Shown here: positions 26,801-39,520 of the stretch, piece by piece
Position numbering within the stretch: position 1 is the first letter of the stretch
How the letters are laid out: each line of letters starts with the position of its first letter
From: Cytophagales bacterium
GTDB taxonomy: Bacteria; Bacteroidota; Bacteroidia; Cytophagales; Cyclobacteriaceae
Length of the DNA: 64,000 nt
NCBI GenBank assembly: GCA_017303795.1
Contig: JAFLBR010000012.1
Location: 62,001 to 126,000, forward strand
Direction: 5' to 3'
The notes under the pieces: model-generated
The model's database searches: none
What the model was told of the DNA's origin: nothing
Seen by the model: only the letters and a program-made list of their open reading frames with translations
Translations under genes and position numbers: made by a program

Positions 26801-26819
26801 TCAAACGTTCACTAAAGAT

Positions 26820-28127
26820 TTACTTCGTAGAAAGTTTCATCGTTTCGGAATGCTGACTCAGATCAAGTCCTAATTGTTCATCTTCTGGCGAAACCCGCAA
26901 ACGTGTAATCATGCCGGTGATCTTGAAGATTACATACGATCCACCAAACGTAAACACACCTACAATCACCAAAGCCAGCAAATGGTACTTAATGGTTTCG
27001 GTGTTGCCATCCATCAAGCCAACATCTTTAGCAAACACAGCGGTTAATATCATCCCTACAATCCCGCCAAGGCCGTGGCAAGGAAATACATCTAACGTAT
27101 CGTCAAGCGAAGTTTTGTTTTTATAGTACACCGCCATGTTACTTACAATAGAAGCGACAAAGCCTATAAAAATACTTTGACCTAAATTCACAAAACCGGC
27201 TGCGGGTGTAATGGCTACTAATCCTACAACGGCACCAATACACGCACCCATAGCCGAAATTTTTCTGCCCACCAGTGCATCGAACATAACCCACGTAATC
27301 ATTGCCGAAGCGGAAGCCATATTGGTTGTTGCAAATGCCTGCACGGCTAAACCATTTGCAGCCAAGGCCGAGCCCGCATTAAAACCAAACCATCCAAACC
27401 AAAGCATACCCGTACCCAGAATAATAAATGGAATGTTGGCGGGCTGATGTTGTTTCTCTTCGCGCTTGCCTAACACATACGCACCAGCCAATGCCGCAAA
27501 CCCAGCCGACATGTGTACTACTGTGCCTCCGGCAAAATCAAGTACACCCCACACACGCAAAAATCCATCAGGGTGCCAGGTCCAATGTGCCAGCGGACAA
27601 TAGATCAATAATGAAAACAAACACATGAAGATGAGATACGAAGTAAACTTTACGCGCTCAGCAAAGCTTCCGGTAATTAATGCCGGTGTTATAATGGCAA
27701 ATTTCAGTTGGAACAAAGCGAATAACAAAAACGGAAATGTAGGTGCCAATGCCGGATGCGGATTGAGGCCTACATTTTTAAAAGCAAAGAAAGTTGTAGG
27801 GTTACCGATAATACCACCGATGCTATCGCCAAAAGCAAGGCTAAACCCAACCAGGTACCACAACAAACTAATCACGCCAAGTGCAATAAAACTTTGTAAC
27901 ATGGTAGAGATAACATTTTTGAAACTCACCATGCCGCCATAAAAAAATGAAAGACCGGGTGTCATAAACAACACAAACGCAGTGGCCACAATCATCCACG
28001 CGGTATCCGATTTATCGATTGATTCGGCCTGATCGCTGATGGGGTCTCCGGCTTTGAATAGGACAAGAAGTTGCAGAACGGTGAGGATAGCAAAGATTAC
28101 AATCCAACGGGTTTTTGGTTTGCTCAT
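26820..28127 (-). CDS. amt: Ammonium transporter (Amt family)
   Basis: 435 residues with about 11 hydrophobic helices, the normal Amt topology. Family motifs are DTAWMIVATAFVLFMTPGLSFFYGG near the N-terminus, DFAGGTVVHMSAGFAAL with the first pore His, and FPCHGLGGIVGMI with the second. It moves ammonium across the inner membrane. No glnK/PII gene is adjacent, which is common in this phylum but leaves regulation open. Confidence 0.95.
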   Translation of the reverse strand: MSKPKTRWIVIFAILTVLQLLVLFKAGDPISDQAESIDKSDTAWMIVATAFVLFMTPGLSFFYGGMVSFKNVISTMLQSFIALGVISLLWYLVGFSLAFGDSIGGIIGNPTTFFAFKNVGLNPHPALAPTFPFLLFALFQLKFAIITPALITGSFAERVKFTSYLIFMCLFSLLIYCPLAHWTWHPDGFLRVWGVLDFAGGTVVHMSAGFAALAGAYVLGKREEKQHQPANIPFIILGTGMLWFGWFGFNAGSALAANGLAVQAFATTNMASASAMITWVMFDALVGRKISAMGACIGAVVGLVAITPAAGFVNLGQSIFIGFVASIVSNMAVYYKNKTSLDDTLDVFPCHGLGGIVGMILTAVFAKDVGLMDGNTETIKYHLLALVIVGVFTFGGSYVIFKITGMITRLRVSPEDEQLGLDLSQHSETMKLSTK

Positions 28128-28244
28128 AGGGAGGTAGATTTAGGTCAAAGTAAACCCAATTAGGTTTAATTTTACCCTATCGATACCAAAATATTACTGA
28201 AAACGATTTAGATGAGTTAAAAATTAACCTAACAGTTGTAAAGG

Positions 28245-29681
28245 TTAAGGTTTCTTCTTCTCCAGGATTTTCTTTTTGAGGGCGAGTCCGGCTTTGCCCC
28301 GCGCACGCAGAATCCACTGAATATCGGAGCCGGTTATTAAAGAAGCATGCGAAGTAATGGCCAGCGAATCGACTGTGAGTTTTACTTTGTTACCCGATTT
28401 ACCTTGCGCAATAGCGGTTTCAATTAATTGCGGCAATGCGCTTAACTCTTCGGTTAAATCTTTCTTCACCGTATCGGCCAGAATAGCCACAAGGTTATCG
28501 TGCATCATCCAATCGGCAGTGTTGAGCAAGGCTTCTTCGGTACTTAAATCGTAACGTAAATTAGTTAACCCGATTACCTGATGAATGGTATCGTAATAGG
28601 GCAATGCTTTAAAATAAATTTTACCACGCAGCGCGCCTCGCACCCGAAGTTCAAGCGCCAACTCTTGTTCGCTACCATACAACTCGGCATGGTGCAGTTT
28701 TACGATATAGTTATTATATGTGAGCGACATCTTTTCGAGATTACGATTTACAAAGGCATTGATCTGGTAAAACGGCAAGTTGGCATGCACGTATAAATCC
28801 AGTTCATCTTCTTCGTTAGGTGCATACCGGTGGCGTGGCAAAGGGCCGGGTTCAATTACCATCGGTTGCTCAAACCAACTATATACCCGCGCCTTTAAGG
28901 TTACCATTCCCGAAATGTTTCCATCCGGATTGGGATTCCACCGCGAACTTAAGGCTTCCGCTTTGGTGGTAAGTCCAATCTGCGGTTCAGTCTTTTTTAT
29001 AATGATGGGTTTATGAATATCGTTCCATACTTTTTCAATCACCTTGCGGCTATCAATTACTTCGTACATCAGGCTATCAAACCGATGGGTAAGTTTTTCT
29101 TCGTTGCGTTCCAGATATTTATCGGCCAGCCCGCGCAGGTTTACATTTACAAAAACTACTTTAAGGGTGGGCTCCATTTTCCAGATCACGGTATCAATAG
29201 CCGTTGTTGATTTTAAACCCCAGCGGTCGTCCAGCATTACATTTGATTTAAGTCGCATTACTACTTCAGCCACCACAGGTTTATCGTTGCTGATACGAAT
29301 ACCAGCAGCTTTTTTCATAAACTTAAACTCAATGCGTAAGGGTACTTCGGCTGTAAGCAGTCCGGGTTTCCAGTTTAACTTGATTGCATCAAACCGTTCG
29401 AGTCCCAGGTAAACACTGTCTTTTTTCTTATCGCCTACGGCCATCCATTCATGTAAAAAAACTCCACTAAGTTTTTTATTCACGGTTGTTTCCAGATCGC
29501 GCAATGAAAAATCGAGTGGAATGCGCAGTGTTGAAACCGGTACCTGCAAGGTTGAGTCGAGCATAGAGCGCGGAGGCGCAACCGGCTTTACCGAAGGGTT
29601 ACGAGAACTATAATACCAACAGGCTCCGGCAGCGCCTATGGCCAGCAGTATGATTAGTAAAATTACTCTTCGGATTACCAT
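28245..29681 (-). CDS. DUF4403-family protein
   Basis: 478 residues with one N-terminal membrane anchor (about 5-25, VILLIILLAIGAAGACWYY). The rest is soluble and probably extracytoplasmic. It follows the DUF4403 pattern of repeated beta-rich segments (STLRIPLDFSLRDLETTVNK, EVPLRIEFKFMKKAAGIRIS, GLTNLRYDLSTEEALLNTAD). The family is restricted mainly to Bacteroidota/Proteobacteria and resembles lipid-binding tubular folds. I know of no demonstrated function. It diverges from the amidohydrolase at 29764 by 82 bp. Confidence 0.75.
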   Translation of the reverse strand: MVIRRVILLIILLAIGAAGACWYYSSRNPSVKPVAPPRSMLDSTLQVPVSTLRIPLDFSLRDLETTVNKKLSGVFLHEWMAVGDKKKDSVYLGLERFDAIKLNWKPGLLTAEVPLRIEFKFMKKAAGIRISNDKPVVAEVVMRLKSNVMLDDRWGLKSTTAIDTVIWKMEPTLKVVFVNVNLRGLADKYLERNEEKLTHRFDSLMYEVIDSRKVIEKVWNDIHKPIIIKKTEPQIGLTTKAEALSSRWNPNPDGNISGMVTLKARVYSWFEQPMVIEPGPLPRHRYAPNEEDELDLYVHANLPFYQINAFVNRNLEKMSLTYNNYIVKLHHAELYGSEQELALELRVRGALRGKIYFKALPYYDTIHQVIGLTNLRYDLSTEEALLNTADWMMHDNLVAILADTVKKDLTEELSALPQLIETAIAQGKSGNKVKLTVDSLAITSHASLITGSDIQWILRARGKAGLALKKKILEKKKP

Positions 29682-29763
29682 TTATACTTAATTTCAGAAG
29701 TACTCAACACACAATGATGGTTTAACTTGTTGAAAATACCTACTTTCCAAAAAACATTACTAC

Positions 29764-31338
29764 ATGCGTCAATTATTTTTCCTCAGTCTGGTTTGCATCA
29801 CACTGGTAGCACAGGCACAAATCGCGAAAGCACCCGAAGTAAAAGAAGGCGAAGGGCCCTACACCCAACTCATCATTCGCGGAGTTATCTTAATAAATGG
29901 TACCGGTGCACCACCCATTGGGCCGGTTGATATTGTGGTGAAACAAAATCGCATTGTAAACATTGCCAACGTTGGTTATCCCGGTGTGCCGATTAATGAA
30001 GCCCGCAGACCAAAACTGGAAGCGGGTGGTAAAGAGTTGGATTGCAGCGGCATGTACCTGATGCCCGGCTTTGTAGATATGCATGGCCACATTGGTGGTA
30101 GCCAGGCTCCGTTTGCCGAATATGTTTTTAAACTCTGGATGGCACACGGTATTACTACTATTCGCGAACCTTCTTCCGGTAACGGATTGGATTGGGTGCT
30201 TGAACATAAAACCAAAAGTGCGCAGAATAAGATAACGGCACCTCGCATTTATGCTTACACGGCCTTTGGTATGGGCGCGAAAGAACCCATTGTTACGGCC
30301 GATCAGGCGCGCGCGTGGGTTGTTGAAAACAAAAACAAAGGTGCTGATGGGATAAAATTTTTTGGCGCTGCACCCGAAGTAATGGAGGCAGCTCTTAAAA
30401 AGAATAAAGAACTTGGTTTACGTTCGGCCACACACCACGCACAAATGAGTGTGGCGCAATGGAATGTTTTACACTCGGCCCGTGCCGGACTTACCAGCAT
30501 GGAGCATTGGTATGGTTTACCCGAAGCGTTGTTCACCAACCAAACCATACAAAACTTTTCACTCGATTATAATTATCAAAATGAAATGGATCGCTTTGGC
30601 GATGCCGGAACATTATGGAAACAAGCAGCACCACCACATTCCGATCATTGGAACAAAGTGATGAATGAATTGCTGGCGCTGAATTTTACGTTAGATCCAA
30701 CTTTTAATATTTACGAAGCCAACCGCGACTTGCATCGCGCGCGCAGGGCCGAGTGGCATGAAGATTATACGTTACCAACGTTGTGGGCTTTCTATCAGCC
30801 CAGCAAAATTTCGCATGGCTCGTACTGGCATGCGTGGGGTACGGAGCAGGAAATTCAATGGCGTGAAAATTATAGATTGTGGATGGCTTTTGTAAACGAA
30901 TATAAAAACCGGGGCGGTCGCGTAACCACAGGTTCTGATTCGGGTTTCATTTTTCAATTGTATGGTTTTGCGTACATCCGCGAACTGGAGTTGTTGCGCG
31001 AAGCAGGCTTTCATCCATTGGAAGTTATTCGTTCGGCAACACTTTATGGGGCGCAGGCATTGGGTGCCGATAAAGATCTGGGCTCGGTTGAAATTGGTAA
31101 GCTGGCCGACTTTGTAATTGTAACAGAAAATCCTTTGCCCAATTTGCAAACCCTTTACGGAACCGGTGCGATAAAACTAACCGATGATAATAAAGTAGTT
31201 CGCGCAGGCGGAGTAAAATATACCGTGAAGGATGGTATAGTTTACGATGCAAAGAAACTATTAGCCGATGTAAAGAAGCTGGTAGAAGAAGAAAAACGTA
31301 AAGCTGGATTTACGTTGAAACAACCGGGTAACGAATAA
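29764..31338 (+). CDS. Secreted metal-dependent amidohydrolase
   Basis: 524 residues with a signal peptide (MRQLFFLSLVCITLVAQAQ). The amidohydrolase superfamily barrel has the first metal pair in GFVDMHGHIGG, further His ligands in SATHHAQMS and SMEHWYG, and the catalytic Asp in TTGSDSGFI. The end (LGSVEIGKLADFVIVTENPL) is the classic family close. It is nearest to imidazolonepropionase/prolidase-like exported members that hydrolyse cyclic amides or dipeptides. The exact substrate is unknown. The TPR lipoprotein gene starts 12 bp after its stop and is probably co-transcribed. Confidence 0.85.
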   Translation: MRQLFFLSLVCITLVAQAQIAKAPEVKEGEGPYTQLIIRGVILINGTGAPPIGPVDIVVKQNRIVNIANVGYPGVPINEARRPKLEAGGKELDCSGMYLMPGFVDMHGHIGGSQAPFAEYVFKLWMAHGITTIREPSSGNGLDWVLEHKTKSAQNKITAPRIYAYTAFGMGAKEPIVTADQARAWVVENKNKGADGIKFFGAAPEVMEAALKKNKELGLRSATHHAQMSVAQWNVLHSARAGLTSMEHWYGLPEALFTNQTIQNFSLDYNYQNEMDRFGDAGTLWKQAAPPHSDHWNKVMNELLALNFTLDPTFNIYEANRDLHRARRAEWHEDYTLPTLWAFYQPSKISHGSYWHAWGTEQEIQWRENYRLWMAFVNEYKNRGGRVTTGSDSGFIFQLYGFAYIRELELLREAGFHPLEVIRSATLYGAQALGADKDLGSVEIGKLADFVIVTENPLPNLQTLYGTGAIKLTDDNKVVRAGGVKYTVKDGIVYDAKKLLADVKKLVEEEKRKAGFTLKQPGNE

Positions 31339-31350
31339 ATTTACATAATC

Positions 31351-32286
31351 ATGAAACGTTTTATTTTATTCATTGCATTGGCTTTGGTGGCGTTTGCCTG
31401 CAAAGAAAATAATCCTGAACAAGCTGCGGCCGAAGCGGCTGAAGTGTATTCGTTATTGGGTTTGGAATATTATGCTCCAACCGAACCCAATCCAAAAGCA
31501 GATAGCAACCTGGCAGTAGCGCAGAAAAATTTTGATGCCGATGCTTCCGAAGAGAATTACATCTGGTTGGGGCGTAGGCTGGCGTATAAAGTAAAATACA
31601 ATCAGGCCATTGATGTGTTTACCGAAGGCATTGAACAATATCCTAACTCTTACAAACTCTATCGCCATCGCGGGCACCGCTATATTTCGCAACGCAAATT
31701 AGATGCCGCCATTGCCGACTTTACCAAAGCGGCTGAGTTAATGCCAGCAACACCATTAGAAATTGAGCCCGATGGCATACCTAACAAAATCAACAAGCCG
31801 TTATCTACTACACAATTTAATGTGTGGTATCATTTAGGTTTGGCGCATTACCTGAAAGGTGAATTTGACAAAGCCGAACAAGCTTACTTAAAATGTATGG
31901 AGGTAAGCGATAATGATGATCTGATTACGGCCACGGTAGATTGGTTGTACATGACTTACCGCAGTCAAGGCAAAACAGATGAAGCAAAACTGTTGTTGGA
32001 AAAAATTACTCCTAACATGACAATTGTTGAAAATGATTCTTACTTCAAGCGACTCAATCTCTATAAAGGCAGCCTTCCCGTTGATTCGGTGCTGAACGTA
32101 AGCAGCACTTCAACCGATGCCGACCTGGCCATTGCCACGCAAGGTTATGGCGTGGGCAACTGGCATTTGTACCATGGCGATACTGTGCAGGCTATTGCTG
32201 TTTTCGAGCGTGTGATAGGCGGAAAACACTTTTCTGCTTTTGGATTTATTGCAGCCGAAGCTGACCTGGCGCGGATAAGAGAATAA
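31351..32286 (+). CDS. TPR-repeat lipoprotein
   Basis: 311 residues with the lipobox ALVAFAC (C17). At least three tetratricopeptide-like helix pairs are visible: NYIWLGRRLAYKVKYNQAID, YKLYRHRGHRYISQRKLDAA and VWYHLGLAHYLKGEFDKAEQ. TPR domains mediate protein contacts. As a lipoprotein paired with the secreted amidohydrolase it may help place or stabilise that enzyme, but this is inference from the 12-bp spacing only. tRNA-Arg follows 67 bp later. Confidence 0.8.
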   Translation: MKRFILFIALALVAFACKENNPEQAAAEAAEVYSLLGLEYYAPTEPNPKADSNLAVAQKNFDADASEENYIWLGRRLAYKVKYNQAIDVFTEGIEQYPNSYKLYRHRGHRYISQRKLDAAIADFTKAAELMPATPLEIEPDGIPNKINKPLSTTQFNVWYHLGLAHYLKGEFDKAEQAYLKCMEVSDNDDLITATVDWLYMTYRSQGKTDEAKLLLEKITPNMTIVENDSYFKRLNLYKGSLPVDSVLNVSSTSTDADLAIATQGYGVGNWHLYHGDTVQAIAVFERVIGGKHFSAFGFIAAEADLARIRE

Positions 32287-32317
32287 ATTGCACTGGCTTT
32301 ATTTTCTCTTAAATTTG
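32287..32317 (+). promoter_or_regulatory. Candidate promoter of tRNA-Arg
   Basis: ATTG (32287-32290), 19-bp spacer, TAAATTTG (32310-32317). The -7 element matches TAnnTTTG exactly, and the -33 element matches three of four bases. The tRNA begins 36 bp downstream. Confidence 0.5.
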
Positions 32318-32353
32318 CGGCCTGTTTGTGAGACTTTAATGCCTCAAAAAACT

Positions 32354-32425
32354 GGTCCCGTAGTTCAATGGATAGAATAGGAGTTTCCTAAACTTTTGAT
32401 GCAGGTTCGATTCCTGTCGGGACTA
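32354..32425 (+). tRNA. tRNA-Arg (anticodon CCT)
   Basis: A 72-nt cloverleaf. The 7-bp acceptor is GGTCCCG/CGGGACT. The D stem is GTTC/GAAT and the anticodon stem GGAGT/ACTTT, with loop TTCCTAA (anticodon CCT). The T stem is GCAGG/CCTGT around TTCGATT. The discriminator is A, with no CCA encoded. A diverged second copy lies at 34670-34741, on the far side of a two-gene cassette. Confidence 0.93.
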
Positions 32426-32504
32426 CTAATTGTACCTGATGCACCATTTTACGCAAAGTCATTGACTTTCGAGTTAGTTAAGAAATGGATTTAATGTAAA
32501 AATA

Positions 32505-33956
32505 ATGATTACACGAATTAAAATTGACGGCTTTAAAAGCTTGCTAAATACAGAATTGTATTTTGGACCTTTTACTTGCATAGCGGGAGCAAATGCAATT
32601 GGGAAGTCCAATTTTTTTGATGCTTTGTCTTTTTTATCAAAACTTGCAGATAATACCATCCTCTATGCAGCAAAATCAATAAGAAGCGAAGAGCAGAAGC
32701 ATTCTGACATTAAAGATATTTTTTTTAAAAGCGGTAAAGAATATTACGAAAAAATGTCTTTTGAGATTGATATGTTAGTTTCTAAAAAAGCAGAGGATGA
32801 TTTAGGTCAAGATGCAGAGGCAAGTATCACTAGTCTCAGATATTCGCTTGAACTAAAATTGAATCTCGATAACACGGAAGGCCAACCGATACAAATAATT
32901 AAAGAAGAGCTCAGGCCGATAACTTTGGGTGAAACAAAGAAAGGAATTCATTTTGAAAGGGACAAAAATTGGGTAAACTCAGTGGTGTTAGGAAAAAAGA
33001 CAACTGCCTTTATAACCACATTGTCAGAAAAAATAAAACTTCATCAAGATGGAAATAAGGGCAGGACAACGGAATTTATTGCTGAAAAAATGCCACGGAC
33101 ACTCTTATCGACCGTTACATCCGAGTCGCCTACGGCTTTTTTGGCCAGACAAGAGATGCGAAACTGGATTATGTTGCAGTTTGAACCAAGTGCTTTGAGA
33201 CAACCAAATAGCACTTACGAAGTTAAGAATGCAGAGATAACGGCTAATGGCAGTAATTTACCAGCAACATTGTACAGGTTGCATACCGAAAAAAATGAAA
33301 ACGATGTTTATCAAAAATTAACCAATAAATTAAAGAGTCTTGTTAATGATGTAGATGAAATAAATGTTGATAAAGACGAAAAGAGAGATTTGTTAACGCT
33401 TCAAATTAAGTTTAAAGACGGTCTTGTTTTGCCTGCTCAATCACTCTCTGATGGCACGCTGAGATTTTTGGGATTGGCCATTATTCAGGAAGACAACAAA
33501 AGCAGCGGACTTATTTGTTTGGAAGAACCAGAGAATGGCATAAACCCTAAAAAGGTAAATGAAATGGTAAACTTGTTAGAGGATATGGCAACTGATACGG
33601 CCTATGAAGTGAATGAAGACAATCCTTTAAGGCAAGTTATTATTAATTCTCACTCTCCCTTGGTCGTTAGAACTGTTTCGGCTGAGAGTTTGTATTTAGC
33701 TACAGAACGTGAGGTCTATTCTGATTTTTTTCAGAAAAAAATTAAACACACTAAGTTCTCTGCGTTGAACAATACTTGGAAAACGGATAATTATCTGATA
33801 GATGCCACTACTATCGGGGATATTATCTGTTATTTAGATAATTCTCAAGTCAATATCAATAAATCAGTGAACGAGTCGTCAGAAGTATACAAGGCCAAAA
33901 GCAAAAAGAAAAGGACGGTTGCAGAAAGTATTAATCAATTAAATCTTCAATTCTAG
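32505..33956 (+). CDS. AAA/ABC-type ATPase (AAA_15/AAA_21, OLD/RloA-like), putative defence ATPase
   Basis: 483 residues. The N-terminus is typical of SMC-like ATPases (MITRIKIDGFKSL), with Walker A GANAIGKS at 28-35. A long middle region holds the coiled/variable insert. The ABC signature is LSDGTLRFL near 314. Walker B is LICLEEPENGI near 335-345 and the H-loop NSHSP near 380. This is the ATPase type found in AbiL, PARIS (AriA) and OLD-related anti-phage systems. Its stop is 3 bp before the Toprim-like gene, so the two act as a pair. AT-rich base use and flanking tRNA copies suggest transfer. The precise system is unidentified. Confidence 0.82.
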   Translation: MITRIKIDGFKSLLNTELYFGPFTCIAGANAIGKSNFFDALSFLSKLADNTILYAAKSIRSEEQKHSDIKDIFFKSGKEYYEKMSFEIDMLVSKKAEDDLGQDAEASITSLRYSLELKLNLDNTEGQPIQIIKEELRPITLGETKKGIHFERDKNWVNSVVLGKKTTAFITTLSEKIKLHQDGNKGRTTEFIAEKMPRTLLSTVTSESPTAFLARQEMRNWIMLQFEPSALRQPNSTYEVKNAEITANGSNLPATLYRLHTEKNENDVYQKLTNKLKSLVNDVDEINVDKDEKRDLLTLQIKFKDGLVLPAQSLSDGTLRFLGLAIIQEDNKSSGLICLEEPENGINPKKVNEMVNLLEDMATDTAYEVNEDNPLRQVIINSHSPLVVRTVSAESLYLATEREVYSDFFQKKIKHTKFSALNNTWKTDNYLIDATTIGDIICYLDNSQVNINKSVNESSEVYKAKSKKKRTVAESINQLNLQF

Positions 33957-33959
33957 AAA

Positions 33960-34604
33960 ATGCCTGAATTGAGATTTACATTGATAGCCGATGGTAGTTC
34001 AGACAGCACCTTATTGACTGTAATTAAGTGGCTATTAGACGATGTATATCCTACCATCGCAGTTCAAAGAAGTTTTGCGGATTTTAGACATCTTCCGAAA
34101 CCACCCCAAGCAGGTGACATCCAAGCACGAATAGATTGTGCTAGTCAATATTATCCATTCGATATCCTTATTTATCACCGTGATGCTGAAAGTAGAGATA
34201 AGGGAATAGTTCTTCAGCGAAAAAATGAAATTTTAGCCAATCTCGTTGATTCAGAAATTGTTGTGTGTGTTATTCCTGTTGAAATGATGGAGGCATGGCT
34301 TTTAATTAGTGGAGAGGCTATAAAAAAAGCGGCTGGAAATCGAGGCTACAATAAGGATATGAAACTTCCGGCAATACAAGCAATAGAGGCCGTATCTAAC
34401 CCCAAAGATCTTCTTCACCAAATATTGAAACAAGTAAGTGGATTGAAGGGTAGGAGACTAAATAGTTTCAATGTGCATCAAGCTGTTCATTTGGTTGCGG
34501 AAAACATTTCAGATTTTTCCTCCTTAAGACAACTAAATTCGTTTCGAGTCTTCGAGAAGGATTTAAGAGAAGCTGTTGATAAGATAGTGGCAAATGGCAA
34601 TTAG
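33960..34604 (+). CDS. Toprim-like partner protein of the ATPase (putative effector nuclease)
   Basis: 214 residues. The start LIADGSSDSTLL matches the first Toprim-type motif (acid-G-x-x-D), and DILIYHRDAES (D75, E77) matches the second acidic motif. A further conserved-looking part reads PVEMMEAWLL (106-115), followed by AAGNR, LP, NPKDLL and GRR. I recall this signature in unnamed partners of AAA_21 ATPases, loosely like DUF4276, but cannot assign a Pfam family. In PARIS, OLD and AbiL/RloB-type systems such a partner is the nuclease or toxin that the ATPase controls. That role here is inference. Confidence 0.65.
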   Translation: MPELRFTLIADGSSDSTLLTVIKWLLDDVYPTIAVQRSFADFRHLPKPPQAGDIQARIDCASQYYPFDILIYHRDAESRDKGIVLQRKNEILANLVDSEIVVCVIPVEMMEAWLLISGEAIKKAAGNRGYNKDMKLPAIQAIEAVSNPKDLLHQILKQVSGLKGRRLNSFNVHQAVHLVAENISDFSSLRQLNSFRVFEKDLREAVDKIVANGN

Positions 34605-34649
34605 ATTAAATCTGCCTGTTGCAAAAATGTATTCAACCCATTCCAATTT

Positions 34650-34657
34650 TACCTTTG
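34650..34657 (+). promoter_or_regulatory. -7 element before the second tRNA-Arg copy
   Basis: TACCTTTG fits TAnnTTTG and ends 12 bp before the tRNA-like sequence, the same spacing as at tRNA-Ala. A good -33 TTTG is not seen at the right distance. Confidence 0.4.
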
Positions 34658-34669
34658 ACAACTTTCTTT

Positions 34670-34741
34670 GGTTCCTTAGTTCAATGGATAGAATAGAAGT
34701 TTCCTAAACTTTTGATCCCAGTTCGATTTTGGGTGAGACTA
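34670..34741 (+). tRNA. Diverged second tRNA-Arg(CCT)-like gene
   Basis: 72 nt, identical to 32354-32425 at 60 of 72 positions. This includes an unbroken D-arm block and the whole anticodon loop (CCT). The T stem differs at several bases yet is still fully paired (CCCAG/TTGGG), and the anticodon stem change keeps pairing. The acceptor (GGTTCCT/TGAGACT) has two mismatches. It may be a weakened or dead gene, or the tRNA-like end of an integrated element. I therefore call it tRNA-like rather than surely functional. Confidence 0.65.
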
Positions 34742-34747
34742 CAAAAT

Positions 34748-35728
34748 TTATCTGCCGGAATAGTTTCGAAGAATAAATTCAACAATCCACTTTTGAAGGA
34801 TTGTTTTTTGCTCCGGTGTAGCGAAGGCAAATCCATGATCAGCCCCCTCAACAAAATGAATTTCGTTTTTCACTTTCAGCGAATCCATTTTAGCCTGTAG
34901 TTTAATACTTTGATCAACGGGCACTACCCGATCTTTATCGCCATGAATGATAAGGGTGGGTGGGGCAGCGCTGGTAAGAAAATTGTAAGGAGAATATGTC
35001 TCCATCATTTGCTGCGCACGGACACTATCTTGTTTTGGGTCAAAACCAAAAATGAATTTTGGTAGATCCAGCCGTCCGCGTAGGCCATTCGGTAACTGCG
35101 CCAAGGCTGAATATAATGTATCGATAACGGGAGCCTGATAAATATCTTTTAATCGGGTGGGGCCGTACACCTCAACCACATACTTAAGTTGAATAGCAGG
35201 AAGTTCTTTGGGTTGATTTATGGTGGGTGAATAAGCAACCATCATGGCGATATGAGCACCGGCAGATTCACCAAAGAGGCCAACATTGTTTAAGTCAAAT
35301 TTATATTCAGTCGCATGCTCTTGAATCCATTTTAAAGCATCGGTAGCATCGCTAATGCAAGAAGGGAATGGGCTTTGATTGGACGTTGCCAACGTATAGT
35401 TGATGCTGATGATTGCATAACCGGATTTGCGCAGTTGGTTAGCCGCTTCATTGAAGCGATTGAAGTTTAACCCTTCTTTAATTCCAGTGACCCACGCGCC
35501 TCCGTGTATGTAAACAACTACAGGTATTTTATCATAAACATTTTGTGTGGGCAAGTAGATGTCGAGATCAAGTCCGTCTTTGTATTTGATGTTGCGTATA
35601 ACCTGCCCGGAAACGATGGGAGCATTATTGGCAATAAGATAGTATGCCAACGCTGAAGCCGAACCTGCGATTAGGATCAATAGGTAAATTAAAAATTTCC
35701 AACGCTTTTTCAACTTAGGTTGTGCCAT
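34748..35728 (-). CDS. Membrane-anchored alpha/beta-hydrolase (esterase, BD-FAE type)
   Basis: 326 residues. There is one N-terminal hydrophobic segment (about 12-33), then the BD-FAE/carboxylesterase fold. The oxyanion motif is VYIHGGAWVTG, the nucleophile is in LFGESAGAHIAMM, the catalytic Asp in IHGDKDRVVPV and the His in EGADHGFAFA. It should hydrolyse small esters in the periplasm or at the membrane surface; the substrate is unknown. Its 3' end is 6 bp from the tRNA-Arg-like sequence. Confidence 0.88.
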   Translation of the reverse strand: MAQPKLKKRWKFLIYLLILIAGSASALAYYLIANNAPIVSGQVIRNIKYKDGLDLDIYLPTQNVYDKIPVVVYIHGGAWVTGIKEGLNFNRFNEAANQLRKSGYAIISINYTLATSNQSPFPSCISDATDALKWIQEHATEYKFDLNNVGLFGESAGAHIAMMVAYSPTINQPKELPAIQLKYVVEVYGPTRLKDIYQAPVIDTLYSALAQLPNGLRGRLDLPKFIFGFDPKQDSVRAQQMMETYSPYNFLTSAAPPTLIIHGDKDRVVPVDQSIKLQAKMDSLKVKNEIHFVEGADHGFAFATPEQKTILQKWIVEFILRNYSGR

Positions 35729-35827: not shown

Positions 35828-36397
35828 TCACACCGGAAACACATTCCCTTTAAAAATCTTCACCGCTATGGCCAGCAGAATTACACCAAAAACCCTGCGC
35901 AGTACAGCAAAGCCTGATTTGCCGATTACACGCTCCAGCCAAGAGGAAGATCGCAGCACGAGGTAAACAAAAAGCAGATTTACAAGAATGCCAATCAACA
36001 CATTAGTCTCTGCATAAACTGCGCGCAACGAAAGAATGGTAGTTAACGTTCCGGCTCCGGCAATTAACGGAAATGCCAATGGCACAACGGAACCCGTACC
36101 TTTTGCATCGGGGTCATCTTTAATCAATGTTATTCCCAGAATCATTTCCATGGCTACAATAAAAATTACAATCGCTCCGGCCACAGCAAAAGAAGCCACA
36201 TCCAACCCAAAAAGATTTAGAATAGATTGCCCGAGGTAAAGAAACCCCACCATCAGCGCAGCCGAAATAAGTGTAGCTTTTTCAGCGTAAATACGCCCCT
36301 CTCTTTTTTTGATGAGAATTATAAAAGGCACTGAACCGATAATATCAATTACCGAGAAGAGAATTAATGATACCGAAAAAATTTCCTTGAAGTCCAT
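35828..36397 (-). CDS. MarC-family integral membrane protein
   Basis: 189 residues from the ATG at 36397. The frame extends further, but family members begin like MDFKEIFSVSLILFSVIDIIG. There are about six membrane helices, with the family motif GSVPFIILIKKREGR and PLAFPLIAGAGTLTTIL. MarC was linked to antibiotic resistance by early genetics, but the role was not confirmed and the transport substrate is unknown. It diverges from the membrane protein at 36434 with only 36 bp between the start codons. Confidence 0.88.
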   Translation of the reverse strand: MDFKEIFSVSLILFSVIDIIGSVPFIILIKKREGRIYAEKATLISAALMVGFLYLGQSILNLFGLDVASFAVAGAIVIFIVAMEMILGITLIKDDPDAKGTGSVVPLAFPLIAGAGTLTTILSLRAVYAETNVLIGILVNLLFVYLVLRSSSWLERVIGKSGFAVLRRVFGVILLAIAVKIFKGNVFPV

Positions 36398-36433
36398 AAA
36401 TAGAAATGCGATGCAAAGGTAGCAGAAAATTGA

Positions 36434-36985
36434 ATGGGCGGTTGGCTTATTGCTTATCTTTCCAAAGTGAAAAGGCAAAACCTATTTTGGTTAGTTACCG
36501 CAGCAACCATTGGCTGGATGTTGGTTATGCGCCCGGTTACGCCAACCAATATCATCGAGTTTGAGTTTGCACGCACGCCCGAGAAAGCTGTAAAAATTTT
36601 TATAGACTGGGGTGGAAGCGGAGTAGAGAAAGCAAAAATGAGTATTCTGCTTGATTTCGTTTTTCTGGTTCTTTACAGTTGGGCCATAAGCCTGGGATGT
36701 AAAGTAGCAGCAGGTTTTTCTAATACTTCAATCATTTCAAAAATCGGGTTACGGCTTTCGCGGATTATCTGGATGGCAGGTGCCTGCGACATGATAGAAA
36801 ATGTTTCGCTTCTGTTGGTGATGCGTAACCTGAACGCCATGCTTCTTGAACTTGCTTTTTGGACAGATGGTATCAAGTTCACAATAGTAATAATAGCCTT
36901 ACTTTTTATAATAGTTGCTTTTGGTATTGGCTTGACGCAGAAACTACTTCATTCGAACGAAAAGAATGACTCAACCTTTTCGTAA
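36434..36985 (+). CDS. Four-helix membrane protein of unknown function
   Basis: 183 residues. Hydrophobic segments lie at about 18-33, 68-90, 105-125 and 145-168. Recognisable but unassigned motifs are ILLDFVFLVLYSWAISLGC and GACDMIENVSLLLVM, an arrangement I have seen in Bacteroidota hypothetical proteins. No catalytic motif is evident. Its 3' end overlaps the 3' end of the convergent aminotransferase gene by 15 bp. Confidence 0.65.
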   Translation: MGGWLIAYLSKVKRQNLFWLVTAATIGWMLVMRPVTPTNIIEFEFARTPEKAVKIFIDWGGSGVEKAKMSILLDFVFLVLYSWAISLGCKVAAGFSNTSIISKIGLRLSRIIWMAGACDMIENVSLLLVMRNLNAMLLELAFWTDGIKFTIVIIALLFIIVAFGIGLTQKLLHSNEKNDSTFS

Positions 36986-38011
36986 AACATTCATCAACCT
37001 TTTACTGTCTGATGGTTTTATAGCCGGAAAATTGGCAATCCGGAAAGTAATTGGCTTCAACTTACCATAACCTTCTCCTAACAAAAAACCAGCTTTGAGC
37101 ACTCGTGATTTTGTAGCCTTGATTTGTGACTGAGTGCCAGTAACAGCAATTACCGTATCCGATCGGACAGCAATATTATTTATTAAAGGTTTGATGGTTT
37201 TTGTTTCCAGAAGTTTGTACCATTCTTTAGCCTGCTGTTTTAATCTTTTATGAATGACGAGAATGAAAGGTGAGTTTTGAAGTACCCGATACAATAAATA
37301 TATACCCAATACATTTGGTGTGTGCGTGGTCTGAAATTTTTCAGCAAACTGTAGTTGATGCACCAGACTATTGTAATGCGAACGTTCATTGAGTTGTTGC
37401 GCTTTGGTAACTGCACGAGGCGAACAAATCAATACAGCAAGTCCGGCAGGCAAGCCAAAACATTTTTGTGCAGAAGCAAACCAAATATCACCCACTGAAA
37501 AATCCAATGCTTGTCCACCCATTGACGATGTGGCATCAATAGCAATTAGCTTAGCTGGATTTTTTTTACGCACTTCACGTAAGATTTTATTGCTTACCTG
37601 CGTGCCATTACTGGTTTCGTTTTGTGTAATGCAGATTACATCGCCAGCATAAACGGCAACGGGTAATTCTTGTTGCGGATCGAATCTTATACTTGCGGCA
37701 CCCGGGTTTAATGCTAGTGTGTAGGTAAACCATTTTTTACCGAATGCACCATTATATATGTGTGTACTGGTTTGCTTGATCAGCGATTGCGCAATTACTT
37801 CCCAGCATTCTGTAGCAGACGACAAGAACAAAACTGTGTACGATTTTGGAGTGCGAAGTTTCTTCTTTAGTTCATTGGAAGTTTTCTTCACTAAATCCAA
37901 GCATGCTGCACTGCGGTGATTCATACTCAGTACACCCAGCCGTTGTGCATCCTTCACATACGAAGGTATTTTGTTATGGACTTGCGAAGGGCCTGGGTAG
38001 AAGGAAATCAT
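36971..38011 (-). CDS. Class V aminotransferase, phosphoserine-aminotransferase-like
   Basis: 346 residues. A PLP-dependent class V fold starts with ISFYPGPSQV and MNHRSAACLDL, as in SerC and alanine-glyoxylate aminotransferases. The Schiff-base Lys is in FASAQKCFGLPAG, with the preceding Asp in AIDATSSMGG and the SerC-like QNETSNGTQV. It most likely makes phosphoserine for serine synthesis, with other small amino acids as an alternative. No serA is adjacent. A small membrane protein gene lies 12 bp after... on the leftward side its end overlaps the 36434 gene. Confidence 0.82.
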   Translation of the reverse strand: MISFYPGPSQVHNKIPSYVKDAQRLGVLSMNHRSAACLDLVKKTSNELKKKLRTPKSYTVLFLSSATECWEVIAQSLIKQTSTHIYNGAFGKKWFTYTLALNPGAASIRFDPQQELPVAVYAGDVICITQNETSNGTQVSNKILREVRKKNPAKLIAIDATSSMGGQALDFSVGDIWFASAQKCFGLPAGLAVLICSPRAVTKAQQLNERSHYNSLVHQLQFAEKFQTTHTPNVLGIYLLYRVLQNSPFILVIHKRLKQQAKEWYKLLETKTIKPLINNIAVRSDTVIAVTGTQSQIKATKSRVLKAGFLLGEGYGKLKPITFRIANFPAIKPSDSKRLMNVLRKG

Positions 38012-38023
38012 TCTCTAGTTCGT

Positions 38024-38512
38024 TTATCGGGTAAGCTCACGTAGAATTCTGCTGAAATAATGTTGTAAATCCAGTTCGCTTTCCTGAATAGAGATGAATC
38101 TTACAATCATCAAACCAATTTGAATTAGAATATAGATTACTGCTGTAGCAATTGACGGTGATAAAAGAATAATCGGAATAAATACAAGAGTAAAAATAAT
38201 AGCAATTAACCAAGTAAAGAATTTCAAACCACCTGTATCAGGAAAATAGTTGACAATTATTTTAGTTTGATTGCCGTTGTCATGAAGTTCTGCTTTAATT
38301 ATGCCTGTAGACTGAAACTTCCTTGCTAAAATATTGTAGTTTCGTTTAACCAGTAACAATTTTTCATTTACAGAAATACTGGCCAGCTCAAGATATTTTG
38401 GATCCATTTTTTCCCATAAATCGGGCTTGTGATCCTTTACTTTATCTTGAATTTTAAGAATAAATTCTTCCAATGGTAGGGAAACAAAATAAGTTTTTTT
38501 TTGGATACTCAT
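38024..38512 (-). CDS. Hypothetical protein with two C-terminal membrane segments
   Basis: The minus-strand frame extends to 38818, but that part lies inside the well-supported hydrolase gene, so I place the start at the ATG at 38512 (MSIQKKTYFVSLPLEEFI); an ATG at 38611 is possible. 162 residues. A soluble N-terminal half of about 90 residues is followed by two hydrophobic segments (FFTWLIAIIFTLVFIPIILL and ATAVIYILIQIGLMIV). No family is recognised. It starts upstream of the aminotransferase on the same strand (12 bp between its stop and that ATG). Confidence 0.55.
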   Translation of the reverse strand: MSIQKKTYFVSLPLEEFILKIQDKVKDHKPDLWEKMDPKYLELASISVNEKLLLVKRNYNILARKFQSTGIIKAELHDNGNQTKIIVNYFPDTGGLKFFTWLIAIIFTLVFIPIILLSPSIATAVIYILIQIGLMIVRFISIQESELDLQHYFSRILRELTR

Positions 38513-38635
38513 CTCTGGGAAGCTCTTATCAAAACTTTTCTTTAACACGATTAAAGATGCAAAAAACTTGTCAATACGAACCTGTGATTTATGGTAAATT
38601 ATTCTGTACATTTCCTCAACCGAAAAACAACTGCC

Positions 38636-39520
38636 ATGAAACCACTTCAAAAGGAAGACATCAAACAAGAAGTTTTTGATCTGTATGACGATTATGCCCA
38701 TAACCGGATTGACCGGAGAACGTTTCTGGAAAAACTTTCGATGTATGCAGTGGGTGGTGTAACCGTAGCTGCGTTGCTCAGTTTTATCAGCCCCGATTAT
38801 CAGATCATTCAGGTGCAAGCCAACGATCCACGCCTAAAGTCCGACTATATAAATTACGATTCGCCCAAAGGCGGAGGTTCCATAAAGGGTTTACTTTCCA
38901 AACCGGCCGATGCAAAAGGAAAACTACCGGGTGTGGTGGTGGTGCATGAAAATCGTGGTCTGAATCCATACATTGAAGATGTTGGCAGAAGAGCCGCGCT
39001 TGCTGGTTTTATTTCATTAGCACCCGATGCGCTAACTCCATTAGGTGGTTATCCCGGTAATGATGATGAAGGTCGAACGTTGCAAAGCAAACGCGATCGG
39101 AATGAAATGCTGGAAGATTTTATTGCGGCCTTTTATCATTTAAAGTCTCATCCCGATTGTAACGGAAAAGTAGGTGTAGTAGGTTTTTGTTTCGGTGGTT
39201 GGATTTCGAATATGATGGCGGTACGCGTACCAGAGTTGGCGGCAGCGGTTCCGTTTTATGGTGGTCAGGCACCGGCAGCTGATGTTCCAAAAATCAATGC
39301 TCCTTTATTGTTGCACTTTGCCAGCTTGGATACCCGTGTAAACGAAGGCTGGCCTGCTTACGAGCAAGCATTAAAAGAAAACAATAAAAAATATATCGCT
39401 CACATGTATCCCGATGTTAATCATGGGTTTCATAATGATAGCACACCACGTTTCGATAAACCCGCTGCTGAGTTAGCGTGGCAACGCACGGTAGATTTCT
39501 TTAAAGAAAACCTGAAGTAA
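38636..39520 (+). CDS. Dienelactone-hydrolase-family protein, exported
   Basis: 294 residues from the ATG at 38636. The N-terminus has a Tat-like motif ([20 protein letters not shown]), so export is likely. The alpha/beta-hydrolase fold has the DLH nucleophile Cys in [10 protein letters not shown], Asp in FASLDTRVN and His in DVNHGFHND. Dienelactone hydrolases open dienelactones in chlorocatechol degradation, but Tat-exported relatives are widespread in bacteria without that pathway, so the substrate is unknown. The stop is 1 bp from that of the convergent gene at 39522. Confidence 0.88.

Follow-up and report, generated by a model that had tools for sequence, protein, structure and literature searches.

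We analysed a 64,000-nt stretch (the window) from the genome of a Cytophagales bacterium (G000; assembly GCA_017303795.1, contig JAFLBR010000012.1, designated C4), in which two tRNA-Arg(CCT) genes enclose a pair of genes matching the candidate defence family HEC-01. A first-pass annotation had described two such tRNA copies with 60/72 nt identity (12/72 positions differ) and two AT-rich, co-oriented genes between them, and this description is borne out by ARAGORN, open reading frames (ORFs) and GC content. The features of this segment are as follows.

32354..32426, + strand: tRNA-Arg(CCT) copy 1, intact and probably a foreign allele (ARAGORN; Rfam; acceptor-stem check; allele comparison)
32505..33956, + strand: HEC-01A-like ABC/AAA_21 ATPase, 483 aa (PADLOC HEC-01A, E 5.4e-97; Pfam AAA_21, E 1.5e-28)
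33960..34604, + strand: HEC-01B-like partner, 214 aa (PADLOC HEC-01B, E 9e-27; weak DUF4276)
34670..34742, + strand: tRNA-Arg(CCT) copy 2, decayed, its 3' half of the type found in the syntenic relatives G009 and G339 (ARAGORN; Rfam; acceptor-stem check)

The gene pair and the two tRNA copies

The interval between the tRNA copies contains exactly two noteworthy ORFs, co-oriented and 3 nt apart. Their GC content is 36.2% as compared to 42.1% for the window and is below that of every non-overlapping 2.1-kb stretch sampled there. HEC-01 is the best PADLOC model for each gene (A and B, respectively), and the adjacent, co-oriented arrangement is the one expected of this system. On the basis of these profile matches, we assign the pair to the HEC-01 candidate defence family as a new member. 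The earlier suggestion of a defence pair is therefore retained as the PADLOC candidate system HEC-01A/HEC-01B and not as PARIS, a label which we rejected since no DUF4435 was present in the Pfam scan and no AriB was found among the 12 PADLOC families matched.

In an alignment of the ATPase with its homologues the motifs GxxxxGKSN, LSDG, CLEEPENG and HSP are invariant (nucleotide-binding motifs common to eight homologues). Models of many further defence ATPases, AriA among them (E 2e-27, PADLOC), match the protein less strongly. Its predicted structure has a mean predicted local distance difference test score (pLDDT) of 70.9, and the nearest folds are those of retron, PtuA and SMC ATPases with template modelling scores near 0.4. 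The HEC-01B-like protein matches DUF4276 at an E value of 9e-4, which falls short of the Pfam cut-off. Two conserved motifs, [DE]G[ST][ST]D and HxDA, are seen in the alignment of its homologues and would fit a metal site. The first-pass annotation had called this protein Toprim-like, which could not be confirmed: comparison of its model (pLDDT 84.7) with the PDB and viral libraries gave no structural match at E <= 1e-3, so that a Toprim fold is not established, and no PDB sequence match was obtained below E 0.1. By analogy with its family, the pair probably acts like other defence modules made of an ABC ATPase and a partner, in which case the ATPase would sense infection and the small protein would be the effector. 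No paper on HEC-01 activity was found among the open PubMed Central (PMC) papers.

HEC-01 is sparsely distributed in our searches, all of which cover samples (295 genomes for the family, 395 for the phylum) or are pattern scans. HEC-01A is present in 4/295 family genomes at E <= 1e-60 and in 2/395 phylum genomes at E <= 1e-70, the own genome being included in both counts, and a pattern scan of genome contigs yielded four HEC-01 loci with 67-75% identity. Among the neighbours listed, which are incomplete for two loci, the other HEC-01 pairs are lone pairs amid ordinary genes, for example glpD/glpK (L064) and tsaD (L066). None of the eight other loci has a tRNA-Arg nearby in the stretches fetched; in one of them a tRNA-Lys is found at a distance of about 4 kb.

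Both tRNA copies exceed the Rfam cut-off of 29 bits, copy 1 with 63.0 bits and copy 2 with 44.3 bits. The acceptor stem of copy 1 is free of mismatches (one G-U pair) while that of copy 2 contains two, and the anticodon loops of the two copies are identical. A search with the tRNA-Arg(CCT) core pattern, which tolerated up to 3 mismatches, gave a match in 49 of the 62 genus genomes searched. Of these 49, 46 have one copy each, and only G000 (2), G016 (3) and G006 (3) have more. As it is kept as a single copy, this tRNA would appear to be important, although AGG may presumably be read by another tRNA-Arg too. Two further candidates in the own genome were discarded: a third tRNA-like match on contig C5 is a tRNA-Arg(ccg) and no copy of tRNA-Arg(CCT), and a match of 11-26 nt near a serine recombinase on contig C12 is at chance level, with no tRNA there.

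One could imagine that the tRNA belongs to the defence module itself, HEC-01B attacking tRNA-Arg(CCT) and the flanking copy serving as a spare or antidote. According to PMC12409363, the AriB protein of the related two-gene system PARIS cleaves tRNAs and extra tRNAs rescue the cells. HEC-01B, however, is neither a DUF4435 protein nor an established nuclease. The identical anticodon loops, the decay of the second copy and the lack of a nearby tRNA-Arg at the eight other HEC-01 loci also speak against it, and we regard this explanation as highly improbable.

Comparison of the locus with relatives

The surroundings of the cassette contain the following features.

31351..32286, + strand: TPR lipoprotein-like gene, kept to the left of the tRNA in relatives (Pfam TPR)
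32310..32353, + strand: leader of copy 1 with the TAAATTTG box (sequence comparison)
34650..34657, + strand: TACCTTTG box upstream of copy 2 (sequence)
34748..35728, - strand: alpha/beta hydrolase, the right neighbour (Pfam BD-FAE)

The left flank was compared with that of nine relatives. The order amidohydrolase, TPR gene and tRNA, in the same orientation, is common to the window and G009, G013, G024, G339, G351, G329 and G337. G008 shows this arrangement in inverted form, and in G018 it is displaced. G329 aligns to positions 26814-32426 of the window (5.6 kb, through one intact tRNA) at 78.7% identity and is without positions 32427-34668. An uninterrupted site of this kind, which the first-pass annotation had proposed to look for, is present in G329 and others, where the tRNA follows the same left flank with no HEC-01. 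Neither HEC-01 gene was detected (E <= 1e-10) at any of the 48 tRNA-Arg(CCT) loci fetched from relatives of the same genus. Together with the single tRNA copy in 46/49 genomes, this means that the two tRNAs and two genes are not conserved as a unit across the genus; such conservation would have told against an island. On the strength of these sequence comparisons we conclude that the locus is an insertion.

The TAAATTTG box and the final leader bases (AAAAAACT) upstream of copy 1 are common to the window and G329, and the left side is therefore taken as resident DNA. The consensus of Bacteroidota promoters is TAnnTTTG. The TACCTTTG box of copy 2 also occurs upstream of tRNA-Arg(CCT) in G348 and G345, with the variant TACCTTTA in G006. 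A short sequence just upstream of copy 1, TGAGACT, was noticed by eye as a possible relic of the resident tRNA; it is too short and was not used. The assembly is a draft in 24 contigs, so that an artefact joining two repeats has to be considered. However, the copies differ at 12/72 positions, the locus lies well inside a contig of 154 kb and the left flank is syntenic, and an artefact is scarcely credible.

On the right side, the tRNA of G329 is followed by a short tRNA relic and then by a MarC-PSAT-DLH block that is inverted relative to the window. This block sits elsewhere in the other relatives tested, and right flanks vary widely among relatives, because of which the right junction cannot be fixed. 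The block occupies positions 35830-39519 of the window, and its inversion with respect to G329 represents a rearrangement breakpoint on the tRNA side. The alpha/beta hydrolase was detected in 7/39 genomes at E <= 1e-20, including the own one (best other match 45% identity, in G035), and is not beside tRNA-Arg(CCT) in the relatives compared. As far as can be told, it lies outside the cassette.

A second tRNA copy or remnant is present at 17/49 tRNA-Arg(CCT) loci as compared to 1/154 control stretches (16/48 when the window is left out). For this count the window was searched 2.5 kb rightward and the other loci 1 kb, G006 contributes two of the 49 loci, G340 is omitted as ARAGORN gave no tRNA at its contig end, and G013, G024, G007 and others, whose more decayed-looking remnants were seen by eye, are excluded. 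Several of the second-copy loci hold a GIY-YIG gene. No GIY-YIG match was obtained between the tRNA copies or elsewhere in the part of the window searched. The tRNA-Arg(CCT) locus is thus a hotspot at which this genus often gains tRNA-bearing inserts.

Tandem or nested copies that hold no defence cargo are common (16/48 other loci) and suggest another order of events: a tandem duplication of the tRNA, like that in GIY-YIG arrays and perhaps due to break repair, would have come first, and untargeted recombination would later have placed the HEC-01 pair between the copies. The occurrence of HEC-01 elsewhere as lone pairs amid ordinary genes is in line with it. Duplication alone, however, leaves unexplained why copy 1 equals alleles of other genera and lies 12 nt away from copy 2, and we hold this order of events to be rather unlikely.

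Origin of the cassette

Copy 1 is identical over 73/73 positions to the alleles of G131, G053 and G173, which belong to one other genus, and of G164, which belongs to another (4/17 family genomes compared). It has 9-12 differences from the nine syntenic relatives and 2 from the nearest alleles of its own genus. The 3' half of copy 2 differs at 1/37 positions from the syntenic G009 and G339 and also from the non-syntenic G350. The rows for G016 and G006a in this comparison are interrupted copies and are used for none of our claims. Copy 1 is probably foreign, and the simplest reading of these alleles is that a foreign copy 1 stands at the resident promoter, copy 2 being the displaced, decayed and possibly chimeric resident. 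We therefore propose, with a probability of about 0.6, that a 2.3-kb cassette composed of a whole foreign tRNA-Arg(CCT) and the HEC-01A/HEC-01B candidate defence pair has recombined into the resident tRNA-Arg(CCT).

Several observations weigh against this proposal. The type of the 3' half of copy 2 occurs in only 2/9 syntenic relatives, G329 having 2 and the other six 5-8 differences. The 5' half is closer to non-syntenic alleles (minimum 2 differences) than to syntenic ones (minimum 3), and the TACCTTTG box resembles those of other clades of the genus; given these resemblances, copy 2 may be a chimera or an import in its own right. A tRNA of 73 nt offers few informative sites. The right junction is not clean, as the right flank has the opposite orientation in G329, and no donor with the tRNA and HEC-01 joined was found, the eight other HEC-01 loci being without an adjoining tRNA-Arg.

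According to the proposal, the exchange would have taken place within the tRNA sequence or at its edge, AGG decoding would have passed to the incoming tRNA and the resident copy, being redundant, would have decayed. When the 5' half of copy 1 and the 3' half of copy 2 are joined in silico, the resulting tRNA has a mismatched acceptor stem. Since such a tRNA would be the product of recombination between copies 1 and 2, loss of the cassette may have become difficult. The enzyme that moved the cassette would be encoded outside it, and the candidates are a recombinase or a tRNA-cutting endonuclease acting in trans, break repair in the tRNA and homologous recombination.

The first-pass annotation had inferred a mini-island of about 2.3 kb without its own integrase. 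Its insertion and the lack of a recombinase inside (only the two genes lie between the tRNAs) have held up, and its formation by an integrase becomes a rival explanation, in which a recombinase encoded elsewhere would have integrated a circle whose attachment site is tRNA-Arg(CCT). The order of leader, copy 1, cargo and copy 2 suits a circle integrated at a tRNA. Large serine recombinases are present at the following positions of three fetched loci.

L046: 6505-8157
L124: 7317-8936
L126: 10504-11937

In G001 and G347 the coding end of such a recombinase reaches up to or into the 3' part of tRNA-Arg(CCT), and in G017 one lies beside tRNA-Arg(CCG), which indicates that a type of integrase for the tRNA-Arg(CCT) site exists in the genus. 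A search of the own genome for recombinases gave six tyrosine and one serine recombinase matches, none of them on contig C4. Two of the tyrosine recombinases are encoded at a distance of about 1 kb from genes for tRNA-Ser and tRNA-Lys, and the sole serine recombinase is located elsewhere in the genome and is only 27% identical to that of G001. Since, in addition, the insert lacks a recombinase and the cargo is flanked by whole tRNA copies and not by one tRNA and a 3' fragment, an integrase-made island seems to us a possible but doubtful origin.

GIY-YIG units and known systems

Side observations were made on GIY-YIG genes and tRNA structures of the genus. We found 28 close GIY-YIG genes in 18/62 genus genomes (G350, G343, G342, G001, G023, G024, G017, G016, G334, G347, G006, G018, G007, G331, G011, G000, G010 and G002; loci L043, L044, L046, L070, L082, L099, L113 and L150-L166), all by tRNA genes. 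An ARAGORN tRNA lies within 100 bp of 22/28 and within 1 kb of 26/28, and the remaining 2/28 adjoin sequence that was recognized as tRNA-like by eye and is either cut by N or interrupted. The tRNAs concerned are Arg (CCT, CCG, ACG) and Leu (CAA, GAG, CAG), with one gene nearest to a Ser. The gene of the own genome (G000:C20:206832-207056, L150) lies between tRNA-Leu(gag) and tRNA-Leu(cag). These genes look like tRNA-homing units. No description of bacterial arrays of GIY-YIG genes and tRNAs was found among the open PMC papers, which is weak evidence of novelty.

At L047 (G019) and L102 (G327), an older tRNA-Arg(CCT) is interrupted in its anticodon region by a second, complete tRNA-Arg(CCT) that has short inverted repeats, and L038 and L039 look similar. 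Palindromes of about 20 bp are frequent in the T, D or anticodon loops of decayed tRNA copies (L043, L127, L047, L037, L150-L161) and are absent from the window for the five patterns tested.

It is tempting to speculate that incoming tRNA copies bearing cargo (defence or endonuclease genes) repeatedly replace an essential-looking single-copy tRNA in this genus, that decay of the old copy locks the cargo in, since a simple recombination of the copies would then yield a defective tRNA, and that the window holds the defence-carrying version, mechanistically related to the GIY-YIG and tRNA units. This generalization is a tentative one, and we consider it unlikely as it stands. tRNA genes are well known as landing sites. 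In the present case, entire tRNA genes seem to be exchanged together with a small cargo from which an integrase is absent. If replacement and lock-in are true, they would offer a simple route to the fixation of a two-gene defence module, and tRNA-Arg(CCT) of this genus would be a natural system for the renewal of tRNA genes by mobile DNA. The locus also ties bacterial loci to the amplification of tRNA and GIY-YIG units in phage T6.

Among the known systems, HEC-01 likewise consists of two adjacent, co-oriented genes, and among the loci found it is only here that they stand between two tRNA-Arg(CCT) copies. PARIS (AriA and AriB) also combines an ABC ATPase with a small partner, and the ATPase of the window matches AriA models; the partner there is DUF4435, whereas here it is HEC-01B/DUF4276-like. 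PARIS is located in P4 satellite hotspots, according to PMC9122126. Genomic islands targeted to tRNAs (Islander type), as defined in PMC4383910, resemble the window in that their cargo lies at a tRNA gene whose target sequence is restored while a second copy is displaced, but they hold the integrase inside and a tRNA fragment, in contrast to the whole, decayed second tRNA and the integrase-free insert seen here. In phage T6, tandem units of a tRNA and a SegB-type GIY-YIG gene, with the 3' end of the gene overlapping the 5' end of the tRNA, are reported in PMC13096335. They are a close parallel to the arrays in G016, G350 and others, which are located on bacterial chromosomes. In the window, HEC-01 takes the place of the GIY-YIG gene, and what is unusual is that whole tRNAs bracket the cargo and that the resident tRNA seems to have given way to a foreign one.
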